A DNA stretch of 64,000 bases, from NCBI GenBank assembly GCA_943787485.1, contig CALSMP010000001.1:248001-312000 (forward strand), read 5' to 3'. The stretch comes from an uncultured Luminiphilus sp. (GTDB lineage Bacteria > Pseudomonadota > Gammaproteobacteria > Pseudomonadales > Halieaceae). The translations under genes were made by a program, and so were the position numbers. The notes beneath the pieces are model-generated. The model did no database searches. It was given only the letters and a program-made list of their open reading frames with translations, and was not told the origin of the DNA. This document shows positions 42,576-51,515 of the stretch, in pieces; positions within the stretch are counted from its first letter, which is position 1; each line of letters begins with the position of its first letter.

Positions 42576-44096
42576 ATGACGCAACCCCGACTGATTCTGA
42601 TCCTGGCGGATCAGTTGAGCCCAGCCAACCCGGCTCTCGTGCTCGCCGACAAGGCCCGTGACGTGATTCTCCTTGCGGAGGTCGCCGAGGAGGCGCATTA
42701 CGTTCGTCACAATCGGCACAAGATCGTCCTGTTGTTTTCCGCCATGCGTCATTTTGCGAAGGATCTAGAGCGCGACGGTTTTTCGGTTCAATACCTGTCC
42801 TTTGATCGCGGCGTAGCGAGTCTCGAGGATGCCTGCCGCGTGGCACTCGACGCGACGGGCTGTGGCGAACTGCTTGTCTGTGAACCGGGGGAATATCGAC
42901 TCGCTTCAGCCATGGCAACCTGGAGCGGAGAGCTCGCTGTTCCCGTGCAGATTCTCGAAGACCGTCGATTTTTGGCGAGTCACGATCAGTTCCAGCAGTG
43001 GGCTGCCGGTCGGAAGCAACTGCGTATGGAGTATTTCTATCGCGACATGCGTCGCCAATACGGTGTGCTGCTGGACGGCGCGGAACCCTGCGGTGGCAAA
43101 TGGAATTACGACAGCGAGAACCGCGTAGGTTGGCGGGGGCAGTGCGAAATTCCCGAGCGGCCAGACCTTGTCCCAGACGCCATCACCAGCGAGGTAATAG
43201 CGCTTGTCGAGCGCGGGTTTCCCAGTAATCCCGGCGATTTGACGCAGTTTCGTCTCGCGGTAACCCGCGACGATGCGCAAGCCCAGTTCGATTGGTTTTG
43301 CAACTATGCGCTGGCCAACTTTGGGACTTACCAGGATGCCCTCGTGGAGGAGTCCCCCTGGGTGTTTCACAGCCTCATATCCATGTACTTGAACTGCGGT
43401 TTGTTGGAGCCGCTGGCGGTGTGCCAGCAGGTGGAGCAGGCGTGGCGCGACGAGCGTTGCTCGCTCGCAGCGGCCGAGGGTTTCATCCGCCAAATTCTGG
43501 GTTGGCGCGAGTACGTCCGAGGTATTTATTGGTTGCTCATGCCTGAGTATGCGACACGAAATACCTTTGATGCTCGCCGACCGTTACCGGACTTCTTTTG
43601 GACCGGTAACACCGATTTGCGCTGTCTGGAGCAAGCGATCAAGCAGTCGCTAGATTTGGGGTATGCGCATCACATTCAGCGACTGATGGTGATCGGTAAC
43701 TTTGCTTTGCTGGCAGGCTTGGATGTGGAGGCGGTGTGCGCCTGGTATCTCGCGGTGTACGTCGACGCCTACGAATGGGTTGAGCTGCCCAATACCGCGG
43801 GTATGGCTCTGCACGCTGACAACGGCGCCATGGCGAGCAAGCCCTATGCGGCCAGTGGCAAATACATCCAGAAGCAAGGTAATCATTGTAAGTCCTGCCG
43901 CTTTAACCCGGCCAAGACAACGGGAGAGGGTGCTTGCCCGTTCAACAGCTTGTATTGGCATTTCATTGATCGCCATGCCGATTACTTGGGCGGCAACGCG
44001 CGCATGGGGCTTATTCTGGCGAACTGGCGCAAAAGAGACGCCGCTGACAAAGCCTCAATCCGAGACTGGGCCGACGCTTTCCTCGCCGCGCTTTAG
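42576..44096 (+). CDS. Iron-sulfur photolyase/cryptochrome (CryB/PhrB type)
   Basis: The 506-residue protein starts MTQPRLILILADQLSPANPAL, the DPRP-type N-terminus. It has EYFYRDMRRQYGVLL, QILGWREYVRGIYWLLMP and HHIQRLMVIGNFALLAGLD. Near the end HCKSCRFNPAKTTGEGACP supplies three cysteines for a 4Fe-4S cluster; a fourth may be the cysteine in LNCGLLEPL. Proteins of this class repair (6-4) photoproducts or act as blue-light sensors. It is convergent with a DASH cryptochrome and DUF2256 gene. Class is firm, exact activity inferred. Confidence 0.9.
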   Translation: MTQPRLILILADQLSPANPALVLADKARDVILLAEVAEEAHYVRHNRHKIVLLFSAMRHFAKDLERDGFSVQYLSFDRGVASLEDACRVALDATGCGELLVCEPGEYRLASAMATWSGELAVPVQILEDRRFLASHDQFQQWAAGRKQLRMEYFYRDMRRQYGVLLDGAEPCGGKWNYDSENRVGWRGQCEIPERPDLVPDAITSEVIALVERGFPSNPGDLTQFRLAVTRDDAQAQFDWFCNYALANFGTYQDALVEESPWVFHSLISMYLNCGLLEPLAVCQQVEQAWRDERCSLAAAEGFIRQILGWREYVRGIYWLLMPEYATRNTFDARRPLPDFFWTGNTDLRCLEQAIKQSLDLGYAHHIQRLMVIGNFALLAGLDVEAVCAWYLAVYVDAYEWVELPNTAGMALHADNGAMASKPYAASGKYIQKQGNHCKSCRFNPAKTTGEGACPFNSLYWHFIDRHADYLGGNARMGLILANWRKRDAADKASIRDWADAFLAAL

Positions 44097-44231
44097 CTTG
44101 TAGCGCTGGCTGCCACATTTTCGTGAGCAGTAGACTACCTCGTCCCAATTGTTTTTCCAGCGAGCGCGCCAGGCGAAGGGTCGCTCGCACACCGGACAAA
44201 CCTTGGTAGGCAGATCGCTTTTCTTACGCAT
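44055..44231 (-). CDS. DUF2256 small zinc-ribbon-like protein
   Basis: This 58-residue protein lies inside a longer ORF of the track; the family start is MRKKSDLPTKVCPVCERPFAW at 44231. It has CPVC and CSRKC pairs, with RARWKNNWDEVVYCS between them, so it probably binds zinc. Its start overlaps the DASH cryptochrome stop by 8 bases, and its end overlaps the convergent photolyase by 42. DUF2256 genes are often found next to DASH cryptochromes; the function is not known to me. Confidence 0.85.
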   Translation of the reverse strand: MRKKSDLPTKVCPVCERPFAWRARWKNNWDEVVYCSRKCGSQRYKLKRGEESVGPVSD

Positions 44232-45537
44232 CGCCAAGGTCTCGCTCGGTGATGGGCCAGTCCGCCGCGTCGGTGACGAAAGCCGGTTGTGGCGCTCGAT
44301 ACCCGTCCCATTTGCGGGTGAACAAACCGTCGGGGTCGTGCTGGGCGGCCTGCTTGTCGAGATTGAACTGACGGCCGCCTCTGGGGTCATGGCCCACCCC
44401 GGCGATGTATTGCCAATTGCCGTAGTTACTCCCAACGTCAAAGTCGATCAGGTGCTTTTCAAAGAAGGCGGCGCCAAACCGCCAGTCACCCTGCAGTTCG
44501 TGGATTAAGCAACTGGCCGCGATCTGCCGGCCGCGATTGCTCATCCAGCCGGTCGCCACAAGCTGGCGCATCAGAGCGTTAACCAGCGGGAAGTCGGTGT
44601 CCCCCGCGCACCAGCGGGCAAACTGCCGGGGTTCGAAGGGACTGAGTCGGGGCTTGCCCACAACCCCTCCGATGCGAAATAGCTTGGGGCCATCGACCAC
44701 TGCCCGCCAGTGGAAGAACTCGCGCCAGAGCAGCTCGAAATAGAGCCAGTAAGTGGATTCGTTGGCGATTTCCCGGCGCTCGAAATCAAAAATACGATGG
44801 GCGATGTGACGTACGGAGAGGTTGCCGTTGGCCAACCAGGGTGACAGCGTGCTCGAGCCGTCCAGACCATCGAGGCAGTTGCGCGTCTCTTTGTAGTCGA
44901 CAATCGATTTGTCGACGTCGATGAATTGTTGCAAGCGGCGCTCCCCGGCCCGTTTTCCACCGGGCAGCGGGAGTGCGGGATGGCGGCTATGAGGTGAGGG
45001 CGGAATGCTGTCGAACTCGGCCGCCGGCGGCGGAGGCAGCCGCTCTGGCGGTGCGAGGGGTGTTTTGACGGTGAGTTTCTCAACCTGACGGCGAAAGGGC
45101 GAAAAGACCCCGGGAATCTCCGCGAGTCCGAAGGGAAAATCCTCGGGTTGGAACAGGGTGTTGCCCCGATGGACAACCAGGGGAATGGTGAGCTTTTGCT
45201 CAAGAAACGCCAGCGTTTTGGCTTCATTTGACCCGTGGCAACGTGACAGACTGATCTCGGTGATGCCAAATCGCGCTACCAGATCCGGGAGCACCAACTC
45301 GGGTGAGCCCTCCAGCACCATCAGATTTTGCCCGAGAGCTTGGAGTTCCCGCTGCAGTTCGGTCAGGGACTCTCGAAGAAAACGGTCTCGCTGGGGCCCC
45401 AAGCCCACGGTGTTACACCAGGGCTTTGGCCTCGGCATCAAAAACACGCAGAGCAGGGAGTCCGCGGCCGCGTGACTCAAGAGCGCCGGATTGTCGTCTA
45501 ACCTGAGATCCTGCTGAAACCAGTGCAGATGCCGCAT
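44224..45537 (-). CDS. DASH-type cryptochrome/photolyase
   Basis: The 437-residue flavoprotein starts MRHLHWFQQDLRLDDNPALL. It contains ELLWREFFHWRAV and GWMSNRGRQIAASCLIHEL. It also has DFDVGSNYGNWQYIAGVGHDPRGGRQFN, the FAD and DNA-binding core of cryptochrome DASH. These repair cyclobutane dimers mainly in single-stranded DNA. A Pro/Arg-rich stretch near 170-195 (PPPPAAEFDSIPPSPHSRHP) is an unusual low-complexity linker. It is followed by DUF2256 with an 8-base overlap. Confidence 0.92.
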   Translation of the reverse strand: MRHLHWFQQDLRLDDNPALLSHAAADSLLCVFLMPRPKPWCNTVGLGPQRDRFLRESLTELQRELQALGQNLMVLEGSPELVLPDLVARFGITEISLSRCHGSNEAKTLAFLEQKLTIPLVVHRGNTLFQPEDFPFGLAEIPGVFSPFRRQVEKLTVKTPLAPPERLPPPPAAEFDSIPPSPHSRHPALPLPGGKRAGERRLQQFIDVDKSIVDYKETRNCLDGLDGSSTLSPWLANGNLSVRHIAHRIFDFERREIANESTYWLYFELLWREFFHWRAVVDGPKLFRIGGVVGKPRLSPFEPRQFARWCAGDTDFPLVNALMRQLVATGWMSNRGRQIAASCLIHELQGDWRFGAAFFEKHLIDFDVGSNYGNWQYIAGVGHDPRGGRQFNLDKQAAQHDPDGLFTRKWDGYRAPQPAFVTDAADWPITERDLGDA

Positions 45538-45617: not shown

Positions 45618-45657
45618 GTGTCATCGGAATTTCACGGCACTTTCATCGTATTTTCAC
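45618..45657 (+). promoter_or_regulatory. Four-half-site Pho-box-like array upstream of the TonB receptor
   Basis: Four 7-base units stand at exact 11-base spacing: GTGTCAT-CGGA-ATTTCAC-GGCA-CTTTCAT-CGTA-TTTTCAC. This matches the architecture of PhoB sites, which are pairs of 7-base direct repeats (CTGTCAT-like) with 4-base spacers. The array ends 96 bases before the receptor ATG. It suggests phosphate-starvation control by PhoB; no phoB gene is in the window. Confidence 0.65.
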
Positions 45658-45753
45658 ATGACCAAAAGGCATTTATCTCTTATTATTCTCGAAGCGCTCG
45701 CGAGAGCGATAATGGGTCCGTTTAACAACTCTTTTTCCCAGGAGTCTTTCATC

Positions 45754-48700
45754 ATGAAGAAGTCCGTTGCACAGCTGTTTGCGCGTAAAGCGCTGGTGAG
45801 TGCCATCGTTGGCACCAGTATCGTTGGTGTGGTTGGTAGCTCAAATAGCGCTTATGCGCAAGAAACATCCGCCATGGTACGTGGTGTGGTGACAGATTTA
45901 GCAGGTAGCCCTGTAAGCGGTGCCACGGTTGTGGTGACCTCATCAAGCACCGGTATCAGCAAAACGGTAACTACCGATACTAACGGTGCCTACTCGGTTC
46001 GTGGCTTACCTGCCGGTGTTGCCTATGATGTAACCGTTGATGCCAACGGTCTTCAAAAGGCCAGCACAGAAGGCATGCAGTTGGCGGTGGGTCAATCAGC
46101 GGTTATGAACTATCGTTTGAGTGATGAAGAGGAAGTGATTGTTGTGGCGCAACGTGTGGCCGTTGCCGAGACAGCAATTGGGCCTACGGCAATTTTTGAT
46201 CTCCAAAGCCTACAGGATTCGCCCGCTATTAACCGCAACATCAACGACATTATTGGTCAAGATCCCCGTATTTTTATTGATCAGTCACGCGGTGTTGACT
46301 CGATTCAGTGCAATGGTGCCAACCCCCGGTTCAATAGCCTGACGGTTGATGGTATTCGCCTGAATGACGGCTTTGGTCTTAACAGCAATGGCTACCCAAC
46401 TCAGCGTATGCCTTTCCCATACGACGCTATTTCAAGTGTGGCTGTGGAGTTGGCGCCAATGAGCGTGGTCTACGGTGGCTTCTCTGCGTGTAACGTAAAT
46501 GCTGTAACCAAAACGGGCGGCAATGAGATTTTCGGCTCGCTGTTTTTCGACTACGGCAGCGATTCACTGCGTGGTGACAAACTGGAAGGCGATACTATCG
46601 AATCGCAATCCTATGAAGAGACCCGTTATGGTTTCGAGATTGGCGGTGCCATTCTTAAAGACAAGCTGTTCTTCTACGGAGCTTACGAAAAGTATGACGG
46701 CGTCGATTTGAACGATAGAGGTGCTATCGGTTCTGGCGCAGTTAACGAAGTACTTATCTCGCAGGCGGAACTTGACCGTATTGCTCAAATAGCCCGTGAC
46801 GTATACGACTACGACCCAGGTACGGCGAAAGCTGAACCGTTCGATTTTGAGGACGAAAAATACCTCGCCAAGATCGACTGGTATGTAACCGACGCGCAAC
46901 GTGTAGCGCTCACGTACATGTACAACGATTCCTTTAACTTCACGCCCTCTGACGGTGATTTAAACGAATTTGAATTCAGCAAGCATTTCTACAAGCGCGG
47001 CGCAGAGCTCGAGTCATACACTCTGAACTGGTACTCAGACTGGAGCAGCAACTTCTCGACCGAAGTACGTTACAGCGTGAGCGAGGTGGACTTCCTGCAA
47101 CAGTCTGTGTCGGGCCCCGATTTTGGAGAGGTTCAAATCCGGGCGGGCGATGGTGTCAACGTTTACCTGGGTGCCGATGACAGTCGTCACGCAAATTCTC
47201 TGAATTGGGATACCGAGCAGTTGGTTCTTCGTGGTCATTACACCCTTGGTGATCACACCATCACAGCTGGTTTTGAACGTGAGTCAATTGAGGTCTACAA
47301 CCTATTCTACCAGCACACTGATACTGAAATTCGCTTTAACAGTATTGATGACTTTGAGGCTGGTCTCGCGCAGCGCGTTTACTACGGTAATGCTATCAGC
47401 AACGTCGATACCGATTCGGCGGTTGAGTGGGCCTATGACGTCAACACCTTCTACATTGAAGACGAGTGGCAGTTTAACGACCGCTTGTTACTCACCTTTG
47501 GTCTGCGTTACGACTACTACGAGACCAGTGACGTGCCCAATGAGAATCCGGATTTTGTTGCCGATTATGGTTTCTCAAACACGGCGACGCTTGATGGTGT
47601 AGATCTATTGTTGCCACGATTTGGTTTCACTTTTGCAGCAACGGATGACATCACTCTGCGCGGTGGCGTGGGTCTCTTCTCGGGTGGTAACCCCAACGTT
47701 TGGTACTCAAACGTGTACTCCAATACCAACACTACCTCAGTACAGGCGCTGTACCGAGCGGGTCGCGGTGACTTCTCCGATGTATCGGCGCTAGCACTGT
47801 TCGACTTTGACTACAGCTTGTGTGAGAGCGGTGTGCCTACCTGTGGCCCCGGCTACGGGGTGCCCACGGGTCTGGCTAATGAGGTTGCAGCGGGTAATGG
47901 CTCCAACTTTGAAATCGTTTACCTTGACCCCGATTTTGAGGCACCCACAGAGTGGAAATATGCGCTGGGCATGACCTGGGAGATTGGCGATGGCTACACC
48001 TTACAAGCCGATGCACAGATTACCCGCGGTGAAGACACGGCCATCTACAAGCACGGCGATCTCGAGCAGGTGGGCACCAGCGCCGATGGCCGCCCGGTGT
48101 ATGACAGTGTGCGTGTACCCACCTTTGTGCTGACTAATAGCTCCAAGGGTAATGAGTCTGAGTCTCTGTCGGTAAGCCTGTTTAAGGCTTATGACTTTGG
48201 TTTGGATATGCGCTTGGGTTACGCATGGACAGATGCCAAAGACGTCAATCCTATGACGTCCTCGGTGGCGTTCTCTAACTACTCAAATCGCACGTTCTTT
48301 GACCCAGAGGAAGAGGTGCTGTCTACATCTAACTACAACGTGGAGCACCGCTTTACGGCTGTATTGAACTACACCACGGAGTTGTTTGCTAACTACCAGA
48401 CGCGGGTCTCACTGTTTGCTCAGAGCAACTCGGGCACGCCCTACAGTATTGTATTGCCAGAGTTTGAGGGTCAGTTGGCCTACGGCTTCACGCCTTATTT
48501 CGAGGGCGACGTGGTATTGGTTGAACCTGGCACTCGTAATAATCAAGAAGGCAGCTGGTGGACCAAGGCGGACCTGCGTATCACGCAAGAGTTTCCCGGC
48601 TTGACGGCCGAGCATCGTGGTAGCGCATTCATCATTATCGACAACTTTACTAACTTGTTGAACGATGATTGGGGTGTGATGGAGCGACCCATCTTCCCTT

Positions 48701-48801
48701 ACGGTGTAACCCAAGCACAGCAAGCCAATGGCCAAGCTGAGACGCGTGTGGGTGAGGCTTCCTTGTGGGAAGTGCGTGTGGGTTTGAACTATCGCTTCTA
48801 A
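45754..48801 (+). CDS. TonB-dependent outer-membrane receptor with carboxypeptidase-like domain
   Basis: The ORF track begins at 45658, but the ATG at 45754 follows CCCAGGAGT and opens a signal peptide (MKKSVAQLFARKALVSAIVG, cleavage at AYAQ). The 1015-residue protein has a carboxypeptidase-regulatory-like beta domain (VRGVVTDLAGSPVSGATVVV), then a TonB-box-like EEVIVVAQR. A plug domain (IGQDPRIF, FNSLTVDGIRLNDG, VNAVTKTGGNE) and a beta-barrel follow, ending in the Phe of LWEVRVGLNYRF. This is the Oar-like class, which imports unknown large substrates. The four-unit Pho-like array upstream suggests phosphate control. A strong terminator follows. Confidence 0.92.
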   Translation: MKKSVAQLFARKALVSAIVGTSIVGVVGSSNSAYAQETSAMVRGVVTDLAGSPVSGATVVVTSSSTGISKTVTTDTNGAYSVRGLPAGVAYDVTVDANGLQKASTEGMQLAVGQSAVMNYRLSDEEEVIVVAQRVAVAETAIGPTAIFDLQSLQDSPAINRNINDIIGQDPRIFIDQSRGVDSIQCNGANPRFNSLTVDGIRLNDGFGLNSNGYPTQRMPFPYDAISSVAVELAPMSVVYGGFSACNVNAVTKTGGNEIFGSLFFDYGSDSLRGDKLEGDTIESQSYEETRYGFEIGGAILKDKLFFYGAYEKYDGVDLNDRGAIGSGAVNEVLISQAELDRIAQIARDVYDYDPGTAKAEPFDFEDEKYLAKIDWYVTDAQRVALTYMYNDSFNFTPSDGDLNEFEFSKHFYKRGAELESYTLNWYSDWSSNFSTEVRYSVSEVDFLQQSVSGPDFGEVQIRAGDGVNVYLGADDSRHANSLNWDTEQLVLRGHYTLGDHTITAGFERESIEVYNLFYQHTDTEIRFNSIDDFEAGLAQRVYYGNAISNVDTDSAVEWAYDVNTFYIEDEWQFNDRLLLTFGLRYDYYETSDVPNENPDFVADYGFSNTATLDGVDLLLPRFGFTFAATDDITLRGGVGLFSGGNPNVWYSNVYSNTNTTSVQALYRAGRGDFSDVSALALFDFDYSLCESGVPTCGPGYGVPTGLANEVAAGNGSNFEIVYLDPDFEAPTEWKYALGMTWEIGDGYTLQADAQITRGEDTAIYKHGDLEQVGTSADGRPVYDSVRVPTFVLTNSSKGNESESLSVSLFKAYDFGLDMRLGYAWTDAKDVNPMTSSVAFSNYSNRTFFDPEEEVLSTSNYNVEHRFTAVLNYTTELFANYQTRVSLFAQSNSGTPYSIVLPEFEGQLAYGFTPYFEGDVVLVEPGTRNNQEGSWWTKADLRITQEFPGLTAEHRGSAFIIIDNFTNLLNDDWGVMERPIFPYGVTQAQQANGQAETRVGEASLWEVRVGLNYRF

Positions 48802-48818: not shown

Positions 48819-48846
48819 AAGGGCGCCCTAGGGCGCCCTTTTTTAT
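48819..48846 (+). terminator. Rho-independent terminator after the TonB receptor
   Basis: AAGGGCGCCCTAGGGCGCCCTT is a perfect palindrome followed by TTTT. It lies between two convergent genes. The T run is on the plus side, so it mainly ends receptor transcription. Confidence 0.93.
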
Positions 48847-49694
48847 TGCGCCCCCAGCAGCGCCGTCAAGAGCAAAGCCAGTCGCCGACTGGCCAGCTGC
48901 CGACGTGTGATCACAGTCGGCGCATGGGCGAGTAAATACTCCTCGGTGAGGACCGCCAATCGGTAGGGCTTCAAATAGGCAGCGGCAGGTGTGTTAAGAA
49001 TAGCGATGCTTTCATTCGCCCAGTCGTTAGGATTCAAAGAGGGCTGGGTTTGCCAATCAGTGGCAGCGTTGGATGCTTCGCGAATACGTGCGGCAGCCGC
49101 CGGATCCTGGTCACTTAAGTAGCCGAAGTAGCGGCTAATCAGGCCGTCCCATATCGCATGCATGTTGACCCGATCGCGCTGCTCTCCCAGTAGCCGCTGC
49201 AGGTGAGGAGGGAGCGTTAAATAAACCCGATTCCCACCTAGATCCTCGGCATAAGCGACATGAAAAGGCTGATGCAAGTCGCCCACCAGGTGGCCGATCC
49301 ACATGAGTGCTTCGCGCCGCTGTTGCTTTGGTGCGGCCGAGGTCAGCACGTTAATCTGCTGCTTGAGTGCGGACAGGGCATCACCGTCCTTGGGGACGGC
49401 TGTTTGTTCGATAGTCTCCACCCCGGGGAAACTATTCCGATAATGCCAGGGTCGTGTCTCGGGTCGAGTCCGTTTAATGTTGTCCGCCCAGACACAGGCA
49501 TCCGGGAACGGTCTGTCGAGAAGCTCGACCACGCTGGCCCGCACGTCGAGGCTAAGCTGGCTGAGCGCCTCTTCACAAATTGTTTTGTGGTCTATGTCCC
49601 ACCAGGCGCTGGCGACGCCCGGTATCAGCATAACGAGGGCCAAGGCCCCGCTGAGAATCGCGAGTCGGTGGGTGCTTCTGTGAGGTATGGGCAT
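48843..49694 (-). CDS. Secreted S1/P1-type nuclease
   Basis: The 283-residue protein has a signal peptide ending near GVASA, so that the mature chain starts WWDIDHKTICEEAL; the N-terminal Trp and His6 are zinc ligands in this family. Other ligands seen are Asp in ACVWADNI, His in RPWHYR, the HxxxDxxxxxH of HLVGDLHQPFHV and HxxxD in NMHAIWDG. All the expected ligands of the trinuclear zinc site are present. The enzyme would hydrolyse single-stranded DNA or RNA and 3'-nucleotides outside the cytoplasm. It precedes a nucleoside transporter and follows the Pho-like TonB receptor. Confidence 0.92.
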   Translation of the reverse strand: MPIPHRSTHRLAILSGALALVMLIPGVASAWWDIDHKTICEEALSQLSLDVRASVVELLDRPFPDACVWADNIKRTRPETRPWHYRNSFPGVETIEQTAVPKDGDALSALKQQINVLTSAAPKQQRREALMWIGHLVGDLHQPFHVAYAEDLGGNRVYLTLPPHLQRLLGEQRDRVNMHAIWDGLISRYFGYLSDQDPAAAARIREASNAATDWQTQPSLNPNDWANESIAILNTPAAAYLKPYRLAVLTEEYLLAHAPTVITRRQLASRRLALLLTALLGAQ

Positions 49695-49849: not shown

Positions 49850-50305
49850 ATGGTGTATCACCTCTTCTGCAGACAATTCATGGACTCGATGCAGCGGCAG
49901 TTTTTTGCGATCTACAATGCCGACGGTTCGCTCAGCGGCGAAATTCGGTACCTGTTCGGTAAATTGAGCGGGGCATCTGAGTGTGCCCTGTGTGAATTAA
50001 GCCACGGGTGGAATCCCTTGGGGCGCGAGGTATGGCGTCAATCGAAAGAAGCACTTTCTCAGTTAGTTTGGTTGCATCGTGACGAGCAGCCGGATGCCTT
50101 GCGAGCCTTTAGCGAAGGCTTGTTGCCGGCGGTGATTATGGAAGAGGCGAGCGGTTTTAAGATCTTGATGGATGCGGCCTGCTTGAGGACCTGTGCGGGC
50201 GATTTCAAGGTTTTCGAACAGGAATTTCTCGCTCGGGTGGGGGCCTTAATCGGTGATAGCATGGCGCTCGAAGGACCCAATCAAACAAGGGAATTTGATG
50301 AATAG
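49850..50305 (+). CDS. Conserved hypothetical protein with a CxxC motif
   Basis: I do not recognise this 151-residue protein. It may start later, at the ATG of [20 protein letters not shown] (49880). It has [11 protein letters not shown] near residue 46, a CxxC that could bind metal, and a second cysteine pair in [12 protein letters not shown]. No signal peptide or membrane segment is seen. It overlaps the start of the nucleoside transporter by 8 bases and so is likely co-transcribed with it. Confidence 0.65.
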
Positions 50306-51515
50306 CTTAATCGGTGTTGTCGCGCTATTGGCTTTTGCCTGGTTGGTGTCTTCCAATCGGACAGCCATTAATTGGCGCACGGTTGGGTGGGCTTTTACCT
50401 TGCAGGCTGGCATCGGCGGTATCGCGTTATTTTCTGCTTGGGGACAATCGGCGTTGCAACTTCTATCGGAGCGCGTCGCATCGCTTTTGGAGTATAGCCA
50501 AGCAGGTATCGCTTTCATGTTTGGTCCTCTGGTCGCGAGCGAGAGTAATTTGGGATTTATTTTTGCCTTTAGCGTACTGCCCATAGTCATATTTTTTAGT
50601 GCACTGATTGCCGTGCTGTATCACCTGGGTGTGATGCAGTGGATTATTCGTATTATCGGCGGCGGTCTCAGACGCCTGCTCGGCACCAGTCATACCGAAT
50701 CCCTGTCAGCTGCGGCAAACGTGTTTGTGGGTCAGGCGGAAGCGCCTTTGGTGGCAAGGCCCTATCTACCGGGTATGACATCTTCCGAGCTTTTTGCGGT
50801 GATGGTCGGTGGAATGGCATCGATTGCCGGTTCAGTTATGGCAGGTTACGTGGCCCTCGGCGTGTCTTTGGAATTTCTCCTCGCCGCGTCTTTTATGGCG
50901 GCACCTGGGGGTCTGTTAATGGCAAAGATGCTGGAGCCGGAAACAAAAATTCCTGAGCAACCAAAACCCGGTGCCAAGCTTGAAGGTGAGCGTTACGTAA
51001 ATCTGGTGGATGCCGCCGCGTCGGGTGCCATGGACGGATTTAAGATGGCCGGTGCGATCGCCGCAATGCTGATGGCTTTTATCGGCCTCATCGCCATGCT
51101 CAACGGTTTGTTAGGTTGGGCGGGTGAGGTATTGGGTCAGCCGGGCGTAACCCTTGAAGCCTTGCTTGGCCTTTTGTTCAAGCCCCTGGCGTGGTTACTC
51201 GGGGTGCCCTGGAGCGAGGCGGAGCTGGCGGGGAGCTTGATCGGCCAGAAGTTGGTGCTCAATGAGTTTGTGGCCTATGTCGCCTATTCGGAAGTAGCGA
51301 ACGACTTTTCAGCCAATGCTTCTGCCATCGTTGTCTTTGCCTTGTGCGGATTTGCCAACCTCTCGTCGATTGCGATTTTACTCGGCGGGTTGGGAGCTAT
51401 TGCGCCTATGCGACGAGACGAGATTTCTCGTTTTGGGCCGCGGGCACTGCTTGCCGCGACCCTGTCGAATTTGATGAGCGCTTCTCTGGCGGGATTTTTT
51501 CTGTCCATCGGCTGA
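50298..51515 (+). CDS. nupC: Concentrative nucleoside transporter, NupC family
   Basis: The ORF track starts at 50253; the ATG at 50298 gives [20 protein letters not shown] and 405 residues. The CNT signature [20 protein letters not shown], the [19 protein letters not shown] segment and [12 protein letters not shown] are present, with about eight to ten hydrophobic helices. NupC imports nucleosides by proton or sodium symport. The secreted nuclease 600 bases away would produce nucleotides, so the two may serve one purpose. Confidence 0.92.

Follow-up and report, generated by a model that had tools for sequence, protein, structure and literature searches.

A tandem Pho-box array before an Oar-like TonB-dependent receptor gene of Luminiphilus, with a predicted role in scavenging phosphorus from nucleic acids

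We report four Pho half-sites in a row before the gene for an Oar-like TonB-dependent receptor, within a 64,000-nucleotide stretch of Luminiphilus DNA that was analysed as a whole (the window). Judged from the sequence, this receptor is probably activated by PhoB and would serve within a route that scavenges phosphorus from nucleic acids. A PhoB-controlled switch for TonB receptors is already known; what is new is the prediction of the substrate. For many TonB receptors of bacteria in the surface ocean no substrate has been assigned, and a phosphorus-hunger control element, taken together with NupC, nuclease and nucleotidase neighbours, points to a specific substrate class for this one. The array and its gene are laid out in window coordinates as follows.

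45618 to 45624, + strand: Pho half-site 1, GTGTCAT (read directly; matrix score as a pair with half-site 2)
45629 to 45635, + strand: Pho half-site 2, ATTTCAC (read directly; matrix)
45640 to 45646, + strand: Pho half-site 3, CTTTCAT (read directly; matrix, as pair 3 and 4)
45651 to 45657, + strand: Pho half-site 4, TTTTCAC (read directly; matrix)
45681 to 45686, + strand: candidate -10 hexamer, TATTAT (sequence read directly, role putative)
45740 to 45744, + strand: Shine-Dalgarno sequence, AGGAG (read directly; also in locus L037)
45754 to 48801, + strand: Oar-like TonB-dependent receptor, 1015 aa (Pfam: N-terminal CarboxypepD_reg, plug, OMP_b-brl_4 barrel)

The half-sites start at 45618, 45629, 45640 and 45651, a period of exactly 11 bp; the spacers between them (cgga, ggca and cgta) are 4 bp each and not A/T-rich, and half-sites 2 to 4 are of the TTTCA and not the TGTCA type. 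The original prediction had described four 7-base half-sites at an 11-base period that chance was unlikely to keep; direct reading verified the positions and spacing, and the pattern scans and simulation bore out the remainder. With TKTCAY-N5-TKTCAY at 0 mismatches the array was the sole place in the 64-kb window, giving three overlapping matches, and the three-unit pattern TKTCAY-N5-TKTCAY-N5-TKTCAY at 0 mismatches had its single match in the 2.67-Mb genome there, the runner-up sites carrying 2 mismatches. At up to 3 mismatches the three-unit pattern gave 32 genome matches, compared with 31 for a reversed control pattern, and the weaker matches are therefore background. When 40 Mb of sequence was simulated with the composition of the receptor's intergenic region, half-site pairs arose with a frequency of 0.0014 per 216 bp; no triple or quadruple arose. 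Since the pattern is unique in the genome and the simulation held no triples, we do not regard the four-fold array as a chance product; its sequence supports a reading as two adjacent Pho boxes in tandem.

A typical Pho box has an A/T-rich spacer and stands in place of the -35 element, with the -10 about 10 bp past the box. A matrix was trained on phoB promoters of the genus, with neither the window's genome nor any receptor in the training set, and was applied to both strands of the window (~128,000 positions), to related loci, and to genome sites selected by pattern. Position 45618 (half-sites 1 and 2) ranked 1 of the ~128,000 window positions, at 20.4 bits, and position 45640 (half-sites 3 and 4) ranked 3; the 45618 array also scored top among the 65 genome sites that match TGTCAYN5TKTCAY with at most 1 mismatch. 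Clear boxes occur in phoB promoters of the genus (e.g., CTGTCATcggaATGTCAT and ATGTCACgttaATGTCAT), frequently with spacers that are not A/T-rich (as in CTGTCATcggaATGTCAT), so an A/T-rich spacer is not a defining trait of the Pho box in Luminiphilus. The candidate -10 lies 23 bp past half-site 4, versus about 10 bp in the genus phoB promoters. Looser pattern scans of the genome returned mostly background-level matches, and a sequence-only covariance model of 18 positions, too short for an effective whole-genome search, gave 2 matches at E<=10, the array being one of them. The top rival genome site (C6:107991) lies immediately beyond recF on the other strand and is probably a chance match; a Pho-like match near a PhoU-like/Pit pair (L020) is downstream of both genes, not before them. 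Outside the array, the highest matrix match in the window is at 1586-1605, where Pho-like matches overlap on both strands (TTGTCACATTACTGTGAA) as an imperfect palindrome.

The three receptor domains all scored above Pfam cut-offs, and a TonB-box-like stretch, EEEVIVVAQR (a resemblance only), follows the N-terminal domain in the translation; a sequence search gave no relative of solved structure. Homologues at E<=1e-100 were present in 38 of 98 related genomes, and of the genus genomes searched roughly half have the receptor. The ATG at 45754 and its AGGAG are common to the window and to the relative in L037 (95% identical); this ATG is the likely start of the gene, in preference to the program-made ORF start, 45658. 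With translation from 45754, 96 bp lie between the end of the array and the start codon.

Upstream sequence was compared at 29 related receptor loci (40-95% identity). A box of two half-sites at 11-bp spacing precedes the receptor in 21 of the 29 (p<=0.02, half-site matrix against shuffles of the same region), a count that includes several close relatives and so is not one of independent loci. With spacer lengths of 2 to 8 bases tried, the mean score was 9.7 at 4 bp versus 1.5 to 5.3 at the others. Examples are CTGTCACcaagCTGTCAC (L043), CTGTCATtaatTTGTCAC (L056) and CTGTAACatttTTGTCAT (L063); the box is also found before the receptor in the Alteromonadaceae strain BrNp21-10 (L068, TTGTCACaaatTTGTCAT), and L. 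syltensis NOR5-1B has a divergent form, TTTTCATtcccCTGTAAC. In L047-L049, L060 and L061 it stands exactly 10 bp before TTTAAT, a phoB-like layout; in the HTCC2080 group (L040, L041, L064) it is weak or absent, with no convincing example, and the gene context is still kept. Thus the conservation in relatives that had been anticipated holds for the two-half-site box but not for the four-fold array, which was found in this genome only, the relatives having a single box. The box persists whether the upstream neighbour is cryptochrome DASH or old yellow enzyme, which argues that it belongs to the receptor. No match of at least 9 bits was obtained for the promoters of NupC, 2OG oxygenase, S1/P1 nuclease, old yellow enzyme and others in the related loci, so that NupC would not be co-regulated through a promoter of its own; in these loci the 9-bit level was reached by a single cryptochrome promoter (9.5 bits) and by two among the 83 unclassified ORFs. 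Adjacent genes for cryptochrome DASH and a photolyase-related protein (DPRP) occupy 42576-45537 of the window, and they lie upstream of the receptor in many members of the genus. Pseudohaliea rubra has a Pho-like box, GTTTCATcgatTTGTCAT (L052, ~2327), flanked on one side by a TonB receptor and on the other by a divergent Exo_endo_phos gene; the window receptor's relative is ~3.7 kb away.

The genome carries phoB, phoR, pstS, pstC, pstA, pstB and phoU in one cluster (names other than phoB and pstB were assigned by reading translations). Directly before its phoB are four half-sites at 11 bp, CTGTCACataaCCATCACaaagTTGGCATaaaaTTGACAC; with 9.4 bits it reaches only a moderate score, so degenerate boxes can occur in this genome. 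Plug-domain searching found 32 TonB receptors in the genome, and among the 30 scored at their gene starts the array-bearing receptor stood at 20.4 bits versus 11.5 for the next, all others falling below 8 bits. The earlier claim of tandem PhoB-type boxes before a TonB receptor is upheld by the top rank under a phoB-trained matrix, by this near-exclusive position among the 30 receptors, by the box retained in most relatives, and by the presence of PhoB-PhoR-Pst. Of the known Pho genes, the phoB-pst cluster has four half-sites in its promoter; PhoX was not found in this genome (90% complete). Neither was a UshA-type 5'-nucleotidase found in it; the single PF02872 match is a SoxB-like protein beside cytochrome genes and not UshA.

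The 11.5-bit receptor adjoins a second PhoB paralogue (G000:C3:43685), the second protein above the PhoB cut-off, and the stretch RTVDVHIRRLRK in the DNA-binding domain is common to this paralogue and the phoR-linked PhoB. In that region (L134 7661-14556, in G000:C3) a large repeated lipoprotein-like gene and the gene for a 1065-aa TonB receptor are on the same strand, with the PhoB-family regulator directly downstream; the Pho-like box of the 1065-aa receptor, ATGTCATagaaATGCAAC, is second-best among the genome's TonB receptors. This arrangement may resemble the Caulobacter ElpS/Cc0171 pair.

The substrate prediction draws upon the genes that follow the receptor in the window and upon their counterparts elsewhere.

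48843 to 49694, - strand: S1/P1 nuclease (PF02265; Pfam), convergent to the receptor
50253 to 51515, + strand: NupC, CNT-family nucleoside transporter, the sole one found in the genome
51556 to 52389, + strand: 2OG-Fe(II) oxygenase, NupC-linked (locus comparison)

The window nuclease retains WWDIDH, HLVGDLH and HAIWD, which we take to be zinc-ligand-like motifs. The NupC-2OG pair adjoins the receptor in most genus loci and an S1/P1 nuclease does so in some species; in L051-L053 the receptor is without a NupC neighbour. The 2OG-Fe(II) oxygenase comes after NupC in almost every locus, Alteromonadales too. In Bowmanella and an Alteromonadaceae strain (receptor identity 44-53%) a divergent group of uridine kinase, NupC and 2OG oxygenase genes is upstream; after the receptor comes an Exo_endo_phos enzyme that bears, close to the N-terminus, a hydrophobic signal-like stretch. 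In Pseudoalteromonas rubra, 48 bp separate the end of an S1/P1 nuclease gene from the receptor that follows, and a UshA 5'-nucleotidase is nearby; in G069 such a nuclease gene begins ~80 bp downstream of the receptor. In four Luminiphilus genomes the position beside NupC is taken by a receptor of 34-39% identity. These differing arrangements share one functional theme and suggest that the substrate comes from nucleotides, oligonucleotides or nucleic acids. A phosphorus-containing substrate had been predicted from the boxes, and the context of NupC, S1/P1, UshA, uridine kinase and Exo_endo_phos genes supports it; on that context the substrate is most likely nucleotides, short oligonucleotides or another nucleic-acid product.

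We infer the following route from the boxes, from how specific they are for this receptor and how well they are conserved, and from the gene context. Low phosphate would activate PhoB through Pst-PhoR, and PhoB-P would bind the tandem boxes and switch on the receptor gene (45754-48801). The TonB-energised receptor would then carry a nucleic-acid-derived phosphorus compound across the outer membrane; an S1/P1-type nuclease/nucleotidase, presumably periplasmic (in relatives UshA or an Exo_endo_phos enzyme), would free phosphate for Pst, and the left-over nucleoside would be taken in by NupC. The weak points of this scheme are that no box stands before NupC or the nuclease, that the -10 distance is odd, that UshA and PhoX were not found, and that the array is not conserved. 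Much of the organic phosphorus that matters in the sea is in dissolved nucleic acids and nucleotides, and if the scheme is confirmed these would lie behind an active outer-membrane importer. A wider and more tentative claim, which we hold possible, is that this receptor family is a nucleotide- or oligonucleotide-specialised TonB transporter under phosphate-starvation control, so that the Luminiphilus group would pump these compounds actively and not rely upon passive Tsx-type pores.

The boxes and PhoB induction could be real, but with a different phosphorus compound as the substrate (phosphate esters, phosphonates, phytate, phospholipid products or metal-phosphate complexes) and a coincidental synteny with the NupC and nuclease genes. 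We consider this unlikely, yet it is the alternative to which we give most weight: PhoB regulons include TonB receptors of unspecified substrate (PMC11208175), L051-L053 have the receptor without NupC beside it, and the NupC-2OG linkage could be an old synteny within the genus. An old synteny accords poorly, however, with a linkage that Bowmanella, Alteromonadaceae and L063 also show in a rearranged order, and that recurs with the 33-39% receptors; nor does it account for S1/P1, UshA, udk or Exo_endo_phos genes in unrelated receptor neighbourhoods.

It is improbable that another regulator of the OmpR/PhoB family reads the 11-bp repeats, in which case the signal might not be plain phosphate starvation. 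The paralogue G000:C3:43685 would be an example, being beside the TonB receptor with the second-best box (11.5 bits) and having RTVDVHIRRLRK in common with PhoB; but the matrix that picked out the array was trained on phoB's own promoters, and the box-bearing genomes G002, G008 and G049 have one PhoB each at the search threshold. We give hardly any credence to a functionless chance run of TTTCAY repeats: the TTTCA form of half-sites 2 to 4 and the lack of a four-fold array in relatives would suit it, but no triple was seen in the 40 Mb simulated at local composition, the array is the top matrix match in the window, and the placement of the box is conserved in relatives. The preferred reading, a PhoB-activated receptor for nucleic-acid phosphorus, is compared below with systems already described.

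A Pho box consists of two 7-bp direct repeats, each followed by 4 bp (PMC4971064). The array resembles known boxes in its 7+4 rhythm, its TGTCAY-like half-sites and its orientation towards the gene, and the phoB-pst promoter of the same genome is built as the array is; it differs in having four consecutive half-sites, of which three are of the TTTCA type, in spacers that are not A/T-rich, and in a candidate -10 that is farther away. In the literature searched we found no paper on a Pho-controlled TonB receptor for nucleotides, which is not proof that none exists. The PhoB regulon of Caulobacter crescentus, as given in the accessible text of PMC11208175 (see also PMC2996285), lists TonB receptors, with uptake of alternative phosphate donors proposed, along with exonucleases and a nucleotide pyrophosphatase; unlike at the Luminiphilus locus, that text reports no linkage of these receptors to a nucleoside transporter. 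Vibrio cholerae obtains phosphorus from extracellular DNA through Xds/Dns, OmpK, UshA/CpdB/PhoX, NupC and Pst, its nucleases being induced at low phosphate (PMC4723616). The proposed route follows the same logic of nuclease, periplasmic nucleotidase, NupC and Pst; however, V. cholerae has UshA and PhoX, neither of which was found in this genome, and its nucleotides cross through an OmpK/Tsx pore, whereas a TonB-driven receptor is proposed here. The present locus joins the PhoB-TonB theme of Caulobacter with the DNA-route theme of V. cholerae.
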